DNA of 64,000 bases, taken from the NCBI RefSeq assembly GCF_009674605.1, contig NZ_WKJO01000001.1, forward strand, positions 2,232,001-2,296,000, in the 5' to 3' direction. The first letter of the stretch is position 1; each line of letters begins with the position of its first letter. Both the position numbers and the translations under genes were made by a program. Below, piece after piece: positions 47,945 to 57,195 of this stretch. This DNA is from Haloferax litoreum. GTDB taxonomy: Archaea > Halobacteriota > Halobacteria > Halobacteriales > Haloferacaceae. The notes below the pieces were generated by a model, which ran no database searches, was not told the DNA's origin, and worked only from the letters and a program-made list of their open reading frames with translations.

Positions 47945-50900
47945 TTAGAGCGTGAACCGCGAGACGGTCGTTCCGGCCTTCGTCAGGTCGGTGTGTGTCG
48001 CGGCGGCGACGGTGACTTGATTCTCGCCGTACTCGATGGCGACTTCGACTTCGAACGACTCGTCTTCGGGTTCGACGAGCGTCGTCTCACCGGGCGTCTT
48101 CACCGCGGCGACGGCGGCGTCAGTCTGCCCGGAGACGACGAGTTTGTCGCCTTTGAAGCGGGTGCTCACGCGGAGACTCGGCCCGGACGGGCGGTCACGT
48201 TCGACGTAGCGTTCACGGACGAACGCCGGCGTCTCGACCGGTTCGCCGGCGTCGACACCGTGTGCGAGGCGAACGAACTGTGCCATCGACCACGCGAGTG
48301 GTGTCGCACTGCCGGTCCCTTCGCCGAACTCCCAGTTGAAGGCCGTCGAGTGTTCACGGTCCCAGACCTGTTCGGCCAACATTCGACCGGAGTTGGAGAA
48401 CGCTGCCATCGTCCGGAGGAGGTTCTTCGGCGCGAGTTTGCCCGCTTCGGTTCCGGCGATGAGTTCGTACTCACCACGCTCGCCGGTGAAGATTGGCCAG
48501 AGGCGACCCTTGCCTTTGGCGTCGATAGACCACGGGGCACCTTCTTCGTCGCGTTCGCGCTCACCGTAGCCGTCACCGTTGTAGCGGTAGAACGCCGGAC
48601 CGTGTGGCGTATCGACGCGAATCGTCTCGTCCGTCTCTTCGATGGAGTTGCGAATTATCTCGTCGTCGGCCGGTTTGATGCCGAGGCGTGTCAGTTCGAG
48701 GAACCCGCCGTCGATAATCTCGCGTTCGTCCAGCGTCGGGCCGTTGTTCGCCAGCGTCCGGAGGTGTCCGGCGTCGGGTTCGCCATCACGGGTGATGCGG
48801 ACGTAGTACGGCGTGTGCGTGTGGCGGTCGGTGCCCGTGCGGGTCGCGGTCCAGTCGTCCACGCGCTCGGCCCAATCGTCCGCGAGGGCGAGCCAGACCA
48901 AGGCGTCCTCGTCGTGGCCCTCATCGAGTGCGACGGCGGCCGCGCAGGCGAGCCCTGCGATTTCGGCCGCGATAGACGACGGCGAGTATCCGGCTTCTTC
49001 TTCCCATCGTTCCTGTGCAGTCGGCGGTCCGTTTCGAGCGACGTAGTCCGCAGACCGTTTGACGTTGACGTAGTCGTAGTCCACGTCGTCGAAGGTCACA
49101 CCGTGTTCTGTGAGCATGTACGCCATCACCTGCGGGAAGGAGATGTTGTCCATCTGCTCGCCGCCCCAGCGGGTCCGGCCGTTGAGGTAGGTGTTCTGCG
49201 GGATGAATCCCCGGTCGTCCTGCTGGTGCGTGTAGATGTATTCCAGCGCGTCGATGGACGTCTCGATGTCGCCGACAGCCTCGAAGACGGTGAAGACCTG
49301 ATAGAGGTCACGCGACCAGACGAAGTTGTACCCGTACCCCTTCGATTCCTCCGCAGGGACGACTTCGCCCCACGGAACCGACGGTGACGCGATGCCTGCG
49401 CCGAGGTAGGTCTTGTCCTCGACTGCCCGGAGACTCATCAGACAGGTCTTGTACTGTGCCGTGAGGTCAGGGTCGCTCGCGACCGAATCTGGGAGGTCTT
49501 TGTCCGAGAGGAACTCCTCCCACGAGTCGGTGTACGCTCCGCGAACCGTCTCGTAGCCACGAGTGAGCGCACCGGCGGCCTCGCCGAGCGCGGCGGCGGT
49601 GTCGGCGTGTTCGGCCAAGCCGAGTGCGAGCGTCTCCGAGAGGTCGTCGCCGGTCCCGATTCGTCCGACGAGGACGACGTTCTCGTCGTCGACGCGTTCT
49701 TGTGCGGTCGGCAGTTCGCCCTTGGAGAAGAACTCCGCGAGGTACTTCGACCCGGCGACGCCGACGGTGGCCCACTCGAATCGTCCGGCAGTAGTCAGTG
49801 CGATGGCGACGCTGTACTCCTGACCGTTCTCGTCGATGAGGAGCGTATCGCGTCCTTCACCGGCATCGAACGCGCCGGCGTCGCGTGCGACGAGGTGGTA
49901 ACTTCCGAGTTGGCCGAGACGGATACCCCGGTCTTTCGTTCCGGTGTTGGCCAGTGCCGTGTCGGCGACGGTGTACAGTTCGTACTCGCCGCCGTCGAAG
50001 GATTCGAACTGCACGTCCGCGAGCATCGCGTCGTGTTCGGGGTCGATGGTGTACTCGACGGTGAGTTCCCACTCGTGACCGCGGCCATCACCAGTCTCGG
50101 TGATGACGTGCCGGAACACGAGTGCGTCTTCGTCGACGATTTCGGCGCGTCGTTCGACGGTATCTGCGTGGTCGTCGCGTCGGGTCTCGTTGTGGGTCCG
50201 CGCCGTGTACTCGGCCTTCGGGTCGGCGTCGACGACGAGGAAGTCCAGCGTCCGGAGGTTCATCAAGTCGACACGCGGGAAGCGAACCTCGGTGAGTGCA
50301 CCTTCGGTGAGCGTGTACCAGAGTCGCGAGGGGTCTTCGGACCCGTGGTCGGCGACGGTGCCGATTCCGTACTTCTCACCGGTCGTCCACCGGGGTCGGT
50401 TCTCCGGGCCAGTCGGCGCGGGTTTCGGTGCCGGGAGCGCGTCGATTTCTGCGAGGATGGCTGTCGTCTCCATCCGAATCGCGTGTGGCCACCCGAGCGG
50501 TGTCGCACTGTCTGGCGTCCCGTCGTCGAACACTTGTTCGGCGAGGTAGCCTGCGTCCGTCGAGAATGGGCCGTCGGGTTGGAGCAGTTCGTAGAGGTTC
50601 GTCGCACGTTCGACGAACCGGCGTCCGTCCTTGCCGAGTCGGTCACAGAGGACGCCGAACTTCGCGGCGGCGTTGGCACCCCACGAGGTGGCGACAGACC
50701 AAACTTTCTCGCCGTCTTGTCCACCGGCACGCCAGTAGTCGTCTTCGAATCGGACCAACCCGGCCACGTCGCCGCGGGGGTTCCGGTACAGTCCTTTCAG
50801 CGTCGCCGCCATGTGCTTGACGAGGCGGTTCGCCGTCTCGGAGTCCACCTCTTCGATGTCGGCGTAGGCGTCCACGGCGTCGACGAGTGCGAAGGTGGCG

Positions 50901-52480
50901 GAGTCGAGTCTGTCGTCGCGTTCGCCGTTTCGGTCGAGGCGGAGCGCGTACACCTCTCTGTCTTCGTCCCACAGTTTGTCCAGTCCCTCGTACACGAGGG
51001 CCGCTTGTTCGGCGGCGTGTTCGCGCAACTCCTCGTTGAGTGGCGCGGTGGCGATGGTTGCGTACGCCTGCAAGAACGTCGCGGCCGTGTGTGTGAACCG
51101 ACCGGCCATGTTCTCCCACGCGTTCTGGCACGCCATCGGGAGGCCGTCGTCTTCCAGACTGCTGTCGAGTCCGGAGATGCCCGCCGCGATGGTCGAGCGG
51201 ATGCGGCCGACGAGTTCGTCGTCGAGTTCGTCACGACGCTCCGTGAGGACAGTCGCGAGGTAGGTCAGCACACTCGCCGTCTGGTCGGCCTGATACTCCC
51301 CGTCGCCGGCACCTTCGACACGGCCGTGTGCCCATCCGGGCGCGATGCTCCCGTCGACGGCCCAGACGCGGTGTGGCCACGTCCCGTCTTCGAGTTGCGT
51401 ACGACAGTAGAACTCGGCGCTGGTCGCGAGGCGGTCTGCGAGGCCGAGTTCGAACGCGTCGTCAGCGTGCGCGAGTGCGCGCGAGATTTCTGCGTCGTCT
51501 CGGAACCACGTGTACCCGTACCCACCCGAGTGGGCGTAGAACGGGTCGAACTCGGGGCCTGCGATGCGGGCGCCGCTGGGTGCAGTCAGGAGCGAGAGCG
51601 CACGGAGGTCTGACCGGACGATTCGTTCGCGGGGCGTCCCCTCGGGCACGTACACTTCTGCTTGTTCGCGTGCGGCCGCACGGAGTTCGTCGGCCGTCGC
51701 GTGTTGGAGTGCGCAGTGCTGGAGGTCCGCGAGTGCGTCAACCCGGTCCATCTCGCTGTGGTCGGAGAGTTGGGTGACGAGTGTCGTTCGTGCTGCCCGC
51801 CCATTCTGTTCGAGTGGGGCGCTGACGACCACGTCACCGGAGAGGTGCGTGTCTTCGTAGCTATTGAGGACTGCCTCACGGGGGAAGTCGAACACGTCGT
51901 CGGAGAGCATCTCGTCGAAGCGTTCGGGAATCTGGCCGCGAACGTCGTCGAGACCGGTCGATGCGGTGACGTAGTCGTGTTCGTCGCGATGGAACACCTC
52001 GACGGCTTGCGTCCCGTTGGGTCCGCCGTCCTGATGGATGAGTCGCCCGACTTGCGTCTCGCGCCCTTCGGGTGCGAGGGTGAGAAACGCGGTCAGGTGG
52101 GCGTCGGTCGGAATCGCACCGCGCAGTTCGACGTGTGTCACGTGCGCGCGACCGAGTGTCAGGTCGTACTGGTGGACGGTGTACTCGCCGGCGTCGTACT
52201 CGGTTTCGACGAGACTCGTCTCTCGATAGTAGTGCTGCCGGACGGATTCGAGTTCGTCGAACCAGTGTGTTTCGCCGTCTGTCTCGATACCGAACCGAGA
52301 GCGGTCGATTCCATAGAGGCCGGAGAGCGCAGACGAGTAATCGCGGAGAGACCCGTTGAGACCGACGAAGACGAGTCGGTCCCCATGGCCCGAGAACGCG
52401 CCATCCGAGGTCTGACACTCCTCTGGGAAGCGCCCACCCCGGTCACGCTTGAATTCGTTTAACGCGGTCCGAAGTCGCAT
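47945..52480 (-). CDS. Tandem GH15 glucoamylase/glucodextranase-like protein (1511 aa)
   Basis: Two GH15-type halves in one continuous frame. Half 1 (about 1–690): N-terminal beta domain, then (alpha/alpha)6 with SGGYGYTWFRDDAEISRALA, QNAWENMAGRFTHTAATFLQAY, SWGANAAAKFGVL, TDAGYLAEQVFDDGTPDSATPLGW. Half 2 (about 697–1511): glucodextranase-type N-domain (SRLWYTLTEGALTEVRFPRVDLMNLRTLDFLVVDA), then YNFVWSRDLYQVFTV, GFIPQNTYLNGRTRWGGEQMDN, WEEEAGYSPSSIAAEI (acid Glu near 1160), NWEFGEGTGSATPLAWSMAQF (base Glu near 1383) and a C-terminal beta domain. No signal peptide, so cytosolic. Likely removes glucose from alpha-glucan ends. Confidence 0.88.
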   Translation of the reverse strand: MRLRTALNEFKRDRGGRFPEECQTSDGAFSGHGDRLVFVGLNGSLRDYSSALSGLYGIDRSRFGIETDGETHWFDELESVRQHYYRETSLVETEYDAGEYTVHQYDLTLGRAHVTHVELRGAIPTDAHLTAFLTLAPEGRETQVGRLIHQDGGPNGTQAVEVFHRDEHDYVTASTGLDDVRGQIPERFDEMLSDDVFDFPREAVLNSYEDTHLSGDVVVSAPLEQNGRAARTTLVTQLSDHSEMDRVDALADLQHCALQHATADELRAAAREQAEVYVPEGTPRERIVRSDLRALSLLTAPSGARIAGPEFDPFYAHSGGYGYTWFRDDAEISRALAHADDAFELGLADRLATSAEFYCRTQLEDGTWPHRVWAVDGSIAPGWAHGRVEGAGDGEYQADQTASVLTYLATVLTERRDELDDELVGRIRSTIAAGISGLDSSLEDDGLPMACQNAWENMAGRFTHTAATFLQAYATIATAPLNEELREHAAEQAALVYEGLDKLWDEDREVYALRLDRNGERDDRLDSATFALVDAVDAYADIEEVDSETANRLVKHMAATLKGLYRNPRGDVAGLVRFEDDYWRAGGQDGEKVWSVATSWGANAAAKFGVLCDRLGKDGRRFVERATNLYELLQPDGPFSTDAGYLAEQVFDDGTPDSATPLGWPHAIRMETTAILAEIDALPAPKPAPTGPENRPRWTTGEKYGIGTVADHGSEDPSRLWYTLTEGALTEVRFPRVDLMNLRTLDFLVVDADPKAEYTARTHNETRRDDHADTVERRAEIVDEDALVFRHVITETGDGRGHEWELTVEYTIDPEHDAMLADVQFESFDGGEYELYTVADTALANTGTKDRGIRLGQLGSYHLVARDAGAFDAGEGRDTLLIDENGQEYSVAIALTTAGRFEWATVGVAGSKYLAEFFSKGELPTAQERVDDENVVLVGRIGTGDDLSETLALGLAEHADTAAALGEAAGALTRGYETVRGAYTDSWEEFLSDKDLPDSVASDPDLTAQYKTCLMSLRAVEDKTYLGAGIASPSVPWGEVVPAEESKGYGYNFVWSRDLYQVFTVFEAVGDIETSIDALEYIYTHQQDDRGFIPQNTYLNGRTRWGGEQMDNISFPQVMAYMLTEHGVTFDDVDYDYVNVKRSADYVARNGPPTAQERWEEEAGYSPSSIAAEIAGLACAAAVALDEGHDEDALVWLALADDWAERVDDWTATRTGTDRHTHTPYYVRITRDGEPDAGHLRTLANNGPTLDEREIIDGGFLELTRLGIKPADDEIIRNSIEETDETIRVDTPHGPAFYRYNGDGYGERERDEEGAPWSIDAKGKGRLWPIFTGERGEYELIAGTEAGKLAPKNLLRTMAAFSNSGRMLAEQVWDREHSTAFNWEFGEGTGSATPLAWSMAQFVRLAHGVDAGEPVETPAFVRERYVERDRPSGPSLRVSTRFKGDKLVVSGQTDAAVAAVKTPGETTLVEPEDESFEVEVAIEYGENQVTVAAATHTDLTKAGTTVSRFTL

Positions 52481-52653: not shown

Positions 52654-54672
52654 ATGCATCACCCAGGACCGCCGCAGTTCATGGCTGTCGGTGAGTCAGT
52701 CCAACTTGCACCGCGCGACCCAGCACCCGACGCCGAGTACGCGTGGCGCGTTCGAAGCGCGCCCGTCGCCAGCAGCCTCGAACTCGCCGAAGACGAGGCG
52801 GTCGTCCAGTTCGACCCCGACGCCGCGGGAACCTACGTCCTCGAACTCGACGCCCCGGATGGCACCCACACGCTGACCATCCGTGTCTTCCCCGGTTCGT
52901 ACCTTCCCGCGGGGTCGGTCCGAAGCGGGGCCAGCGGGATGAGCGGAATGAGCGGTTACAGCGGCCAGAGCGGGTCTGCCCGGCCGACGCAGGTCAGCGG
53001 TGGCGCGTCAGGGTCCGGAAGCGGTGCCGATGAGGCCCAGCGTGGCGACGGGGGGCGCCCACGCATCCGTCTCGATGCCACCGTCGAAGACGACGTGGTC
53101 GTCGTTCGTGCCGACCCACAACCGAACCCGAACAGTGAGACCGACCGCGACGACCTGGTTGTCGAGTTCGTCGTCGACGACCGGGACGAAGTAGACGAGA
53201 CTGCCGTCGAGACCGACGGCTGGGAACTCCGTGTTCCGCTCTCGGCTATCGGTGACAGACTTCGCGTCCACGCCGTCGCCATCGACGAGACGTACAGCGT
53301 CCCCGACACCGTCACCGTCGAACGCGATGCGCTGACCGACGGTGGCGTCGCGGAGACCGAAGTTGAAGCGAAGAGTCAAGCCGACGGCTCTGGCGCGCAG
53401 TCAGCGTCCGTCTCCCGCCCCAACGACCCACCAAAGTGGGCACAGGAGGTGACCCTCTACGAGATTTACGTCCGGGGCTACGCCTCTGACGACGACGAGG
53501 CCGACAACACCTTCGAGGCACTCGAAAAGCGACTCGACTACCTCGAATCGCTCGGCGTCGACTGCCTGTGGTTGACTCCTGTCCTCCAGAACGACCACGC
53601 GCCCCACGGCTACAACATCGTGGACTTCTACTCCATCGCGGAGGACCTCGGCACCCGAGAAGACTACGAGCAGTTCGTCGAGGCCGCCCACGACCACGGG
53701 ATGAAGGTCCTCTTCGACCTCGTTTTGAATCACTCGGCGCGCGACCACCCGTTCTTCGAGGACGCGTACAAGAACCCCGACTCCGACTACTACGACTGGT
53801 ACGAGTGGCAGGACAACGGTGAACCGGGCACCTACTTCGACTGGGAGTTCATCGCAAACTTCGACCACCGGAACCTCGACGTTCGACGCTACCTCCTCGA
53901 CGCCGTGGACATGTGGGCCGACGTGGCCGACGGATTCCGCTGCGACATGGCGTGGGCCGTCCCCGACACCTTCTGGCAGGAGATTCGTGAACGCGTCAAG
54001 TCGAAAGACCCCGAGTTCCTCCTTCTCGACGAGACCATTCCGTACATCGCCGACTTCCACGAGGGGATGTTCGACATGCACTTCGACACGACGCTGTACT
54101 TCACGCTCCGGCAGGTCGGCCGCGGCGACGAACCCGCCGAGCGCATCCTCGACGCCATCGACCAGCGTGCCGAAGTCGGCTTTCCCGACCACGCGGCGTT
54201 CATGCTCTACCTCGAAAACCACGACGAGACGCGCTACATCGTCGAGTGCGGTGAGTCCGAAGCGATGGCCGCCGCGGGCGCACTCTTCACGCTCCCCGGC
54301 GTCCCGATGGTCTACGGCGGCCAAGAGATTGGTCAGCGCGGACGCCGCGACGCCCTCGCGTGGAAGCACGCCCGCGACGACATCCGCGACCACTACGAGC
54401 GACTCATCGAGGTCCGCGACGAGACGCCTGCACTCCGATACAATGGGTCGTTCCGGCGCATCGACTACGAGGCTGACTCCGACCGCGTCGTCGCGTTCGT
54501 CCGCGACCACGACGACGGGTCGTATCTCTGCGCGCTGAACTTCAGCGACGACCCGGTCACGGTCGACGTCGGTGACCTCGCAGTCGACGCCACGGACATC
54601 GTCTCCGGCGACTCCATCGCCGCCGAAGGTGGCCTTCGCGTCGACGACGTTGCAATCTGCCCCCTCGCCTGA
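52654..54672 (+). CDS. GH13 alpha-amylase-family glycosidase with Ig-like N-domain
   Basis: 672 aa; starts MHHPGPPQFMAVGESVQLAP. Residues ~10–90 form a beta domain, then a SG-rich spacer (SGASGMSGMSGYSGQSGS), a second beta domain (~130–225), and the GH13 barrel from about 265. Catalytic residues: Asp431 (GFRCDMAW), Glu460 (LLDETI), Asp524 (ENHDET). YEIYVRGYASD and FDLVLNHSARDHP are regions I/V-like. No signal peptide; a cytosolic maltodextrin/cyclodextrin-type enzyme such as haloarchaeal MalA is the closest functional comparison. Divergent from the GH15 gene; 42 nt before the next glycosidase. Confidence 0.85.
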   Translation: MHHPGPPQFMAVGESVQLAPRDPAPDAEYAWRVRSAPVASSLELAEDEAVVQFDPDAAGTYVLELDAPDGTHTLTIRVFPGSYLPAGSVRSGASGMSGMSGYSGQSGSARPTQVSGGASGSGSGADEAQRGDGGRPRIRLDATVEDDVVVVRADPQPNPNSETDRDDLVVEFVVDDRDEVDETAVETDGWELRVPLSAIGDRLRVHAVAIDETYSVPDTVTVERDALTDGGVAETEVEAKSQADGSGAQSASVSRPNDPPKWAQEVTLYEIYVRGYASDDDEADNTFEALEKRLDYLESLGVDCLWLTPVLQNDHAPHGYNIVDFYSIAEDLGTREDYEQFVEAAHDHGMKVLFDLVLNHSARDHPFFEDAYKNPDSDYYDWYEWQDNGEPGTYFDWEFIANFDHRNLDVRRYLLDAVDMWADVADGFRCDMAWAVPDTFWQEIRERVKSKDPEFLLLDETIPYIADFHEGMFDMHFDTTLYFTLRQVGRGDEPAERILDAIDQRAEVGFPDHAAFMLYLENHDETRYIVECGESEAMAAAGALFTLPGVPMVYGGQEIGQRGRRDALAWKHARDDIRDHYERLIEVRDETPALRYNGSFRRIDYEADSDRVVAFVRDHDDGSYLCALNFSDDPVTVDVGDLAVDATDIVSGDSIAAEGGLRVDDVAICPLA

Positions 54673-54714: not shown

Positions 54715-57195
54715 ATGAGCACGAAATACGGCACCCCGACGCTCCTATCCGACCGTACGGACGACCTCGTCTCGTGGTACGAGACGGTCGTTGCGAACTA
54801 CGACGACACTTTCGAGGCCGCGAAAGAACTCTCGACACGACTCGGTGCGCACGTCAGCGACGACGCCGTCGAGTTCGGCTTCTGGACGCCCGAACTCGTC
54901 GAAGACGGCGTTCCTACCGACGCCGTCGAACTCGAGATACTGACGCCGCCTGCGGACCTCGACCCCGGCGAGACTGACCACCGTCAGGTCTCCTTCCAGC
55001 GTGACCGCATCTCGATGGAACGCGCCGGCGATTACCACTGGGCAGTCGTCGAAGGCGTCCGCGCGGGGACACGCGACACGCTCGGGTCACTTTACCAACT
55101 CGTCTACGAGGACGACGACGGTGAGGAACACACGATTCAGGACCCTGTCTCCTACTCCGTCCCGTTCGGTGCGTTCGCGCCCGCAGAGGTGTACGACCTG
55201 ACCGTTCTCGACGAGACGCGCGCCGACCGAGAATACTTCGAGGCCCTCGGTACCGACGACGAACGCGTTTCGACCACCGAAGACGACGGCCTCCCGCGCA
55301 TCGGCCCCGCGACGAGCATGCTGGAGATTCACCCCGGAACCGCCACCGAACGCGGGTCGCTCGCCGGCCTCGCCGAGGTGTACGAAGACATCGCCGCCAA
55401 ACAGCGCGCCGGCGACGACCTCGACCCGTGGGAACGCGCCTTCGCCGGGTACGACGGCATTCAGGTGATGCCCGTCGAACCGCTGACCGAGAACGAAGAA
55501 GAACACGACTTCTGGTCGGTCGAATCCACGTCCGACGACGCACTCGACGTCGAAGTCGCACGCCCCGAGATGATAAACTGGGGCTACGACATCGTCGTCA
55601 GCGCCTTTTCTGCGCCGAACCCGGCCATCCTCGAAACCGGCCGCCCGGACGAACTCGTGGACTTCATCGCCGCGTGCCACGACCTGCCGCGACCCATCAA
55701 AGTCGTCTTCGACGTGGCACTCGGCCACGCCGACGACAGAGGTGCGGAACTCCTCTCCGACCGATACATCCTCGGCCCGGGGATGTACGGCAAGCACCTC
55801 GACTACACCGAACCGACAGCGCGTGCCGTCTTCCTCGAGATGCAGCGCCGGAAGATGGACTTCGGCGCCGACGGGATTCGCGTCGACGGCGCGCAGGACT
55901 TCACCTCCTACGACCCCGAAACCAGCGAAATGTACCACGACGACGACTTCCTCGCCGAGATGGACCGCGTCACACAGGAAGTCGCCGGCACAGAGTACCG
56001 GCCGTGGATGGTTTACGAGGACGGCCGTCCGTGGCCACGCGAAGACTGGGAACTCGCCTCGTCGTACCGTGCGCTCATCGAACAGCACCCCCACTCGTTC
56101 CAGTGGTCGCCCATCACGTTCGCGCACAACACGCCCGCACTGCTCACGTTCTGGGCGACGAAGTGGTGGCGTGTTCGCGAAGTCGGCGAGTTCGGCGGCA
56201 ACTGGTTGACGGGCGTCGCCAACCACGACACTGTCCGCCGCGGGACGCAAATCGACCCGACGGTGGAGTTCAACCAGTCGCCGGTCAACCCCTACCTCGG
56301 TGAGGACTACCCCGAGACGCTCGACGAAGCGTACGACAACGCCGCGTCGTCGATGCTGTTCCACTGCTTCCTCCCGGGCGTTCCGATGGACTTCGTCCAC
56401 GCCAACATGCGCGCCCCGTGGGGTTTCATGCGCGACACCGACCCGACGTGGAACGTCAAAGTCGTCTCCGACGAGTCGAAGTTCCTCTACTGGCAGGTGC
56501 GCGACGAGGACTTCGAAGACGACCGGTTCTTCCCCCGTGTGAAGAACCTCGGATTCGAGTCGCGTGAGGAACTCCTGACGTTCATGAACGCCCTCTCGTC
56601 TGCCGTCGGTGCGACCGACTACGACCTCGACGTGATGGCCGACATGCTCTCGGCGATGGACCAACCGCTCGGTGACGACCTTTCTGCGTCAGACCTCGAA
56701 GCCTACGGTTACGCGTGGATGCGCGACATCCACGAGTTCGCCAACCTGAGCCACTGGCACGACGCCCAGGACGACGAGCGCTCGGCGTACCGCCTCCAGA
56801 CGAGAGAATTCCGCCACGACCGCCCGTGGCTACTGGCCGACCTCGACGAAGACGAGGACTACTTCACCTACCGTCACCCGACCGACGGGACGGTCCTCTA
56901 CTACGGATTCCGGAACTCCCCGGACGGGGTCTCCGCAAGCGAAGCGAGCGGAGGCTCGTCGGACTCGCTCCGCTCGTCCGACGGTGACGAACAACTCCTG
57001 TTCGCCGCGAACATGGAGGGCGTCCCGGTCGAAGTCTCACCCGAGTACCTCGCCGCCGACGCCGCCGAAGACGACAACGCACCCGAGATTCCGACCGACG
57101 GATGGGAACCGGCCCTCGTCGCGCCCGGCGTGGACGAGTCTACGGAAGTCGAAATCGCGAACGGGCAGGCAATCGTCTGGCGGCGCGAACCGTAG
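54715..57195 (+). CDS. GghA-like alpha-amylase-superfamily glycosidase (glucosylglycerol hydrolase type)
   Basis: 826 aa. N-terminal beta domain (~1–170), then a barrel with distinctive IVVSAFSAPNPAILETGRPDELVDFIAACHDLPRPIKVVFDVALGHADDRGAELL, YILGPGMYGKHLDYTEPTARAVFLEMQRRKMDFGADGIRVDGAQDF (nucleophile Asp391), PWMVYEDGRP (Glu435) and VANHDTVRRG (Asp505). These sets match glucosylglycerol-hydrolase-type GH13 relatives from memory; sucrose- or glucan-acting alternatives remain. Near 743–760 an ASEASGGSSDSLRSSDGDE low-complexity insert interrupts the C-terminal beta domain. Starts ATG 54715, 42 nt after the GH13 gene, likely the same operon. Confidence 0.72.
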   Translation: MSTKYGTPTLLSDRTDDLVSWYETVVANYDDTFEAAKELSTRLGAHVSDDAVEFGFWTPELVEDGVPTDAVELEILTPPADLDPGETDHRQVSFQRDRISMERAGDYHWAVVEGVRAGTRDTLGSLYQLVYEDDDGEEHTIQDPVSYSVPFGAFAPAEVYDLTVLDETRADREYFEALGTDDERVSTTEDDGLPRIGPATSMLEIHPGTATERGSLAGLAEVYEDIAAKQRAGDDLDPWERAFAGYDGIQVMPVEPLTENEEEHDFWSVESTSDDALDVEVARPEMINWGYDIVVSAFSAPNPAILETGRPDELVDFIAACHDLPRPIKVVFDVALGHADDRGAELLSDRYILGPGMYGKHLDYTEPTARAVFLEMQRRKMDFGADGIRVDGAQDFTSYDPETSEMYHDDDFLAEMDRVTQEVAGTEYRPWMVYEDGRPWPREDWELASSYRALIEQHPHSFQWSPITFAHNTPALLTFWATKWWRVREVGEFGGNWLTGVANHDTVRRGTQIDPTVEFNQSPVNPYLGEDYPETLDEAYDNAASSMLFHCFLPGVPMDFVHANMRAPWGFMRDTDPTWNVKVVSDESKFLYWQVRDEDFEDDRFFPRVKNLGFESREELLTFMNALSSAVGATDYDLDVMADMLSAMDQPLGDDLSASDLEAYGYAWMRDIHEFANLSHWHDAQDDERSAYRLQTREFRHDRPWLLADLDEDEDYFTYRHPTDGTVLYYGFRNSPDGVSASEASGGSSDSLRSSDGDEQLLFAANMEGVPVEVSPEYLAADAAEDDNAPEIPTDGWEPALVAPGVDESTEVEIANGQAIVWRREP

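Follow-up and report, generated by a model that had tools for sequence, protein, structure and literature searches.

The gene and its surroundings

The window, by which is meant the whole stretch of 64,000 nucleotides of Haloferax litoreum DNA that was analysed, belongs to a genome of 3.56 Mb in 3 contigs and contains a gene whose product is two complete two-domain enzymes of glycoside hydrolase family 15 (GH15) in tandem (Table 1). A preliminary description had given the exact coordinates of this gene, but no strand, and had placed both halves in one frame. The frame is indeed single and lies on the minus strand, where 1511 codons are read from an ATG at 52480 down to 47945 with zero internal stops; the plus strand of the same interval is interrupted by stops. 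Since each half consists of a beta domain and a barrel, the protein represents two enzymes in series rather than a single enzyme bearing an additional domain.

The fused gene is adjoined by a divergent gene for a MalA-type GH13 alpha-amylase in which no signal peptide was seen, and this is followed directly by a gene for a hypothetical glycoside hydrolase of the GHL5 type. A MalA-type GH13 adjoins the fused gene in 72 of the 79 ortholog loci; five of the other seven loci end at contig edges and two (L055 and L088) lack MalA in the DNA examined. GHL5 was found in 27 of the 79 loci. An alpha-amylase of Haloarcula japonica is called intracellular in the title of a paper that appears in the reference list of PMC11239784, and in this species (L111) a GH13 of the MalA kind lies beside the fused gene, with no identity to the characterised amylase implied. 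As no Tat or Sec signal was visible by eye at its N-terminus, the fused protein is apparently cytosolic, as had been proposed.

Table 1. Features of the double-GH15 locus, with positions counted along the window
Feature	Position	Strand	Evidence
Double-GH15 gene, whole	47945..52480	minus	1511 aa; orthologs span residues 1-1511
Residues 1-245, N-terminal beta domain, first enzyme	51746..52480	minus	beta-rich in AlphaFold2 model
Residues 246-687, helical linker and first GH15 (alpha/alpha)6 barrel	50420..51745	minus	Pfam, TIGR01577, 5z3a match
E456, predicted general acid, first half, motif NAWEN	51113..51115	minus	invariant 74/74; aligned with C-terminal half and solo forms
E648, predicted general base, first half, motif LAEQVFD	50537..50539	minus	invariant 74/74; motif alignment
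Residues 688-991, Glucodextran_N beta domain, second enzyme	49508..50419	minus	PF09137, 214.8 bits
Residues 992-1425, second GH15 (alpha/alpha)6 barrel	48206..49507	minus	PF00723, 119 bits; 1ug9 and 1lf6 matches
E1160, predicted general acid, second half, motif ERWEE	49001..49003	minus	invariant 74/74; motif alignment
E1370, predicted general base, second half, motif LAEQVWD	48371..48373	minus	invariant 74/74; motif alignment
Residues 1426-1511, C-terminal Glucodextran_B-like beta domain (weak)	47948..48205	minus	PF09136, 16.6 bits; phmmer to 1ug9
MalA-type GH13 alpha-amylase, divergent neighbour	52654..54672	plus	NF041321, 1131.5 bits (cut-off 875); no signal peptide seen
GHL5 hypothetical glycoside hydrolase, directly after malA	54715..57195	plus	PF14872, 746 bits

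Family and fold of the two halves

GH15 homology was found for each half separately in Pfam searches, and for the N-terminal half in structure matches too, as the claim of two complete halves demands. Searched alone, the C-terminal half matched PF00723 at residues 1014-1406 (119 bits, E 4e-34) and, above cut-off, the Glucodextran_N domain PF09137 at residues 688-991. Its similarity to the Arthrobacter glucodextranase 1ug9 was nearly end-to-end (E 3.8e-123) and that to the Thermoanaerobacterium glucoamylase 1lf6 was also strong (E 6.9e-94), while TIGR01535 (glucan 1,4-alpha-glucosidase) covered it over the full length of the model with 517-537 bits, short of the equivalog cut-off of 741.9. To judge from these sequence matches the C-terminal half is clearly glucodextranase- or bacterial-glucoamylase-like. 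The preliminary description had given this half beta domains of its own at both ends; the N-terminal one is firmly recognised, but the C-terminal one only weakly, since Glucodextran_B (PF09136) at residues 1448-1498 stayed below its cut-off of 27, with the phmmer alignment to 1ug9 running on into the Glucodextran_B-like region.

The N-terminal half has a beta domain too and represents a divergent archaeal form of GH15. Searched alone it matched PF00723 at residues 297-671 with 40 bits, where the cut-off is 22 (E 3e-10), and TIGR01577 (oligosaccharide amylase, NCBIfam) with 110 bits, the whole protein reaching 168 against an equivalog cut-off of 820.7; a sequence search of the PDB with this half gave no good match. 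Residues 1-687 were modelled by AlphaFold2 with a pLDDT of 84.5 and a pTM of 0.85, and the model conforms to the prokaryotic GH15 form of an N-terminal beta domain followed by an (alpha/alpha)6 barrel. Over both domains the model superposed on dextran dextrinase 9ju0 with Z 35 (582 residues at an rmsd of 4.0) and on the bacterial glucoamylase 1lf6 with Z 33.3 (565 residues at an rmsd of 3.7); its barrel by itself superposed on the GH15 structure 5z3a with Z 34.1 (325 residues at an rmsd of 3.1). That the halves belong to different subtypes is thus borne out by TIGR01577 on one side and TIGR01535 on the other, but the first half, described earlier as glucoamylase-like, is not a classical bacterial or fungal glucoamylase.

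The structural matches bear on what the halves might act upon. One half, most likely the N-terminal one, could be an isomaltose glucohydrolase, a trehalase or a retaining transglucosidase acting on linkages other than alpha-1,4, and the two best structural matches of the N-terminal half, dextran dextrinase 9ju0 and the GH15 glycosidase 5z3a, point that way, the latter being the isomaltose glucohydrolase of Kribbella (PMC12446779). Dextran dextrinase moreover shares the glutamate pair of the inverting enzymes, so that the pair does not discriminate between an inverting hydrolase and a retaining transglucosidase (PMC12446779), and the general acid of the N-terminal half is followed by N or D in place of E. 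However, the glucoamylase 1lf6 scored almost equally with 9ju0 and 5z3a, so the structure leaves the substrate of this half undiscriminated, and the gene neighbours are of the maltodextrin type; this alternative is regarded as unlikely.

A structure prediction spanning both barrels (1196 residues), the route by which the preliminary description had hoped to see an interface, gave no confident arrangement: the pTM was 0.60 and the pLDDT at the junction about 30. With a junction this loose no inter-domain interface is claimed.

Conservation of the active sites

The catalytic motifs of the two halves align with each other and with those of separately encoded relatives. In 74 of 74 full-length orthologs the general acids E456 and E1160, the general bases E648 and E1370, the Arg-Asp pairs R327/D328 and R1057/D1058 and the later arginines R577 and R1299 are unchanged, as is W455 of the N-terminal half, and both glutamates of that half were present in every aligned solo N-type protein. 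Loss of the catalytic glutamate pair from one half had been named as the observation that would overturn the double reading; the pairs are kept in both halves, and a dead first half was not supported, both of its glutamates being invariant.

A milder version of that idea is that only the C-terminal half is a working glucoamylase, the N-terminal half drifting and being catalytically weak, structural or glucan-binding. Mean barrel identity among the 74 orthologs is 58% for the N-terminal half versus 76% for the C-terminal half, so that the former evolves faster and is the less conserved, its match to GH15 amounts to just 40 bits, N or D and not E stands beside its general acid, and the published annotation rests on the C-terminal half (PMC8305020). 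Against this stand the invariance of R327, D328, W455, E456, R577 and E648 in every one of the 74 fused proteins, the retention of both glutamates in the aligned solo proteins and the persistence of solo N-type proteins next to sugar-uptake genes, and we consider a failing N-terminal half quite unlikely.

In fungal glucoamylase the residue following the general acid contacts the +1 sugar. At this position the C-terminal half carries E, the fused N-terminal halves N (55) or D (19), and distant standalone relatives on the methanogen side T or S. The N-terminal half therefore probably recognises the acceptor side differently from the C-terminal half.

Distribution and reality of the fusion

The end-to-end fused chain was found in ~75 other haloarchaea at identities from 92% down to about 50%, with Haloferax species as the nearest named relatives and a spread over Haloferacaceae, Haloarculaceae, Halobacteriaceae and others. 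This recurrence means that the fusion is due neither to chance nor to an assembly error, and an artefact or misassembly was ruled out by the 74 full-length orthologs that keep it intact; a frameshift split at the junction is absent from the window. Across the 295 genomes of the phylum sampled, matches to the N-terminal half in frames of ~1500 aa or longer were confined to genomes of the taxonomic order to which the window belongs. At one locus (L180:7625-12126) the fused gene lies in two overlapping frames, probably by a frameshift, whether real or from sequencing, and in Haloferax profundi two contigs (L071 and L075) stop within it.

Separate counterparts and origin

Both kinds of GH15 also occur as free proteins. 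The N-type is then about 660-720 aa long, and the window's own genome has such a paralog of 665 aa (L142:8330-10327, about 486.3-488.3 kb on contig C1) adjoining a TrmB regulator, a MalK/UgpC-like ATPase and a sugar-binding lipoprotein. This paralog only just passes PF00723 (22.3 bits, cut-off 22), so counts of haloarchaeal GH15 by Pfam are probably too low; N-type-related proteins on the methanogen side were recovered by a profile search. The free C-type is about 800-1250 aa long, and by eye most of its members start with a twin-arginine signal, and in several a lipobox could be made out. Such Tat-type signals, several with a lipobox, were seen at eight loci (L182, L184, L185, L186, L187, L188, L189 and L190); the longer free C-type proteins carry an extra C-terminal domain, and a free C-type protein from Halorussus limi bears the annotation glucodextranase DOMON-like domain-containing.

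A single locus of Halobaculum limi holds a free N-type gene with no signal, a free C-type gene for a Tat lipoprotein, a GH13, TrmB and ABC-transporter genes. In Halomicrobium urmianum a signal-less C-type gene (800 aa) is directly followed by an N-type gene (660 aa), in reversed order relative to the fusion and with signal peptides in neither, on plasmid NZ_CP084092.1 (L194:3971-8414); GH13, TrmB and an ABC transporter adjoin this pair. N-type and C-type are both present at four further loci (L181, L182, L183 and L185), and the ABC transporter at the separate-gene loci is of the maltose type. The occurrence of the halves as separate yet neighbouring genes supports the idea of their joint action. 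In a metagenome-assembled genome (L092:1459-8027) the fused gene is directly followed by a free N-type gene.

In the tree of C-terminal halves all the fused genes, together with two truncated by contig ends (L071 and L110), form one group with an SH-aLRT of 99; the one-clade test on these halves (p 0.039) is void, L071 and L110 having been labelled solo in it although they are fused. For the N-terminal halves the one-clade constraint was mildly rejected (p 0.013, 4.35 log-likelihood units), and from that tree no single origin is therefore claimed. In both trees the Halomicrobium urmianum pair falls among the solo genes, with support of 81 and 92, which argues against the pair having arisen recently by the splitting of a fused gene. 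Seen from the C-terminal side, a single early fusion is likely.

Proposed function

The two GH15 folds, the kept catalytic residues, the conserved fusion, the MalA neighbour and the separate-gene counterparts together make it probable that the protein is a double-headed exo-hydrolase that acts on alpha-glucans in the cytosol, downstream of MalA. MalA, the intracellular alpha-amylase encoded next to it, would first cut maltodextrins that are imported or made within the cell. The C-terminal unit would then take single glucose residues off the non-reducing ends, hydrolysing alpha-1,4 linkages and probably alpha-1,6 linkages as well, and the N-terminal unit, whose +1 subsite appears different, would free glucose from complementary oligosaccharides that are short or bear alpha-1,6 linkages or branch points, so that the pieces from MalA would end as glucose in the cytosol. 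A single chain would fix the halves in 1:1 amounts and keep them close, perhaps with some channelling between them. That the two sites differ in linkage, for example with alpha-1,6 or short oligosaccharides for the N-terminal half and alpha-1,4 for the C-terminal half, is put forward tentatively, at somewhat less than an even chance. A coordinated attack on a long or branched glucan, as suggested in the preliminary description, would be in keeping with the neighbouring separate homologs, the MalA neighbour and the conserved active sites.

Relation to known systems

Descriptions of GH15 enzymes usually give them one catalytic unit each. A literature search, with subscription papers mostly outside its coverage, found no account of a chain that has two of them. 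The architecture is less unusual than had been suggested, as it belongs to a conserved family for which the annotations GH15 and candidate glucoamylase already exist; public plasmid records name the fused protein 'glycoside hydrolase family 15 protein'. HVO_1711 of Haloferax volcanii, apparently the ortholog of the window gene, has been published as a candidate glucoamylase only, its family tied to the purified glucoamylase of Halorubrum sodomense, which is tentatively linked to A0A1I6HD35; HVO_1711 and the Hrr. sodomense protein share 51% identity, and the characterised enzyme P29761 matches the C-terminal half only (PMC8305020). The half-match and the 51% identity fit the double architecture, and HVO_1711 apparently belongs to the same family; the N-terminal half was not found to be called a second GH15 in PMC8305020.

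The glucodextranase of Arthrobacter globiformis (1ug9/1ulv) shares Glucodextran_N, GH15 and the weak domain B, but is unfused to a second GH15 and has a longer C-terminal region in a chain of 1020 residues. The Thermoanaerobacterium glucoamylase (1lf6/1lf9) resembles the C-terminal half in sequence and the N-terminal half in its two-domain fold, yet is a single GH15 unit. The archaeal TIGR01577 family of methanogen GH15 proteins is the nearest named family to the N-terminal half, which nevertheless falls far under its equivalog cut-off, and its members are separate single-unit proteins. The top structural matches of that half, 9ju0 and 5z3a, are bacterial, only 13-18% identical and single GH15 units in the matched structures.

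Two invariant GH15 sites in one chain, the parts of which also occur as neighbouring genes, offer a clean test of same-family fusion. Animal maltase-glucoamylase and sucrase-isomaltase each have two family-31 units; if the linkages of the two GH15 sites differ, the haloarchaeal protein would be a cytosolic, convergent double-headed exo-glucosidase built from another family. The double-GH15 reading would also fix an annotation based on the C-terminal half alone, and the protein would help to complete the haloarchaeal intracellular pathway for starch and maltodextrin.
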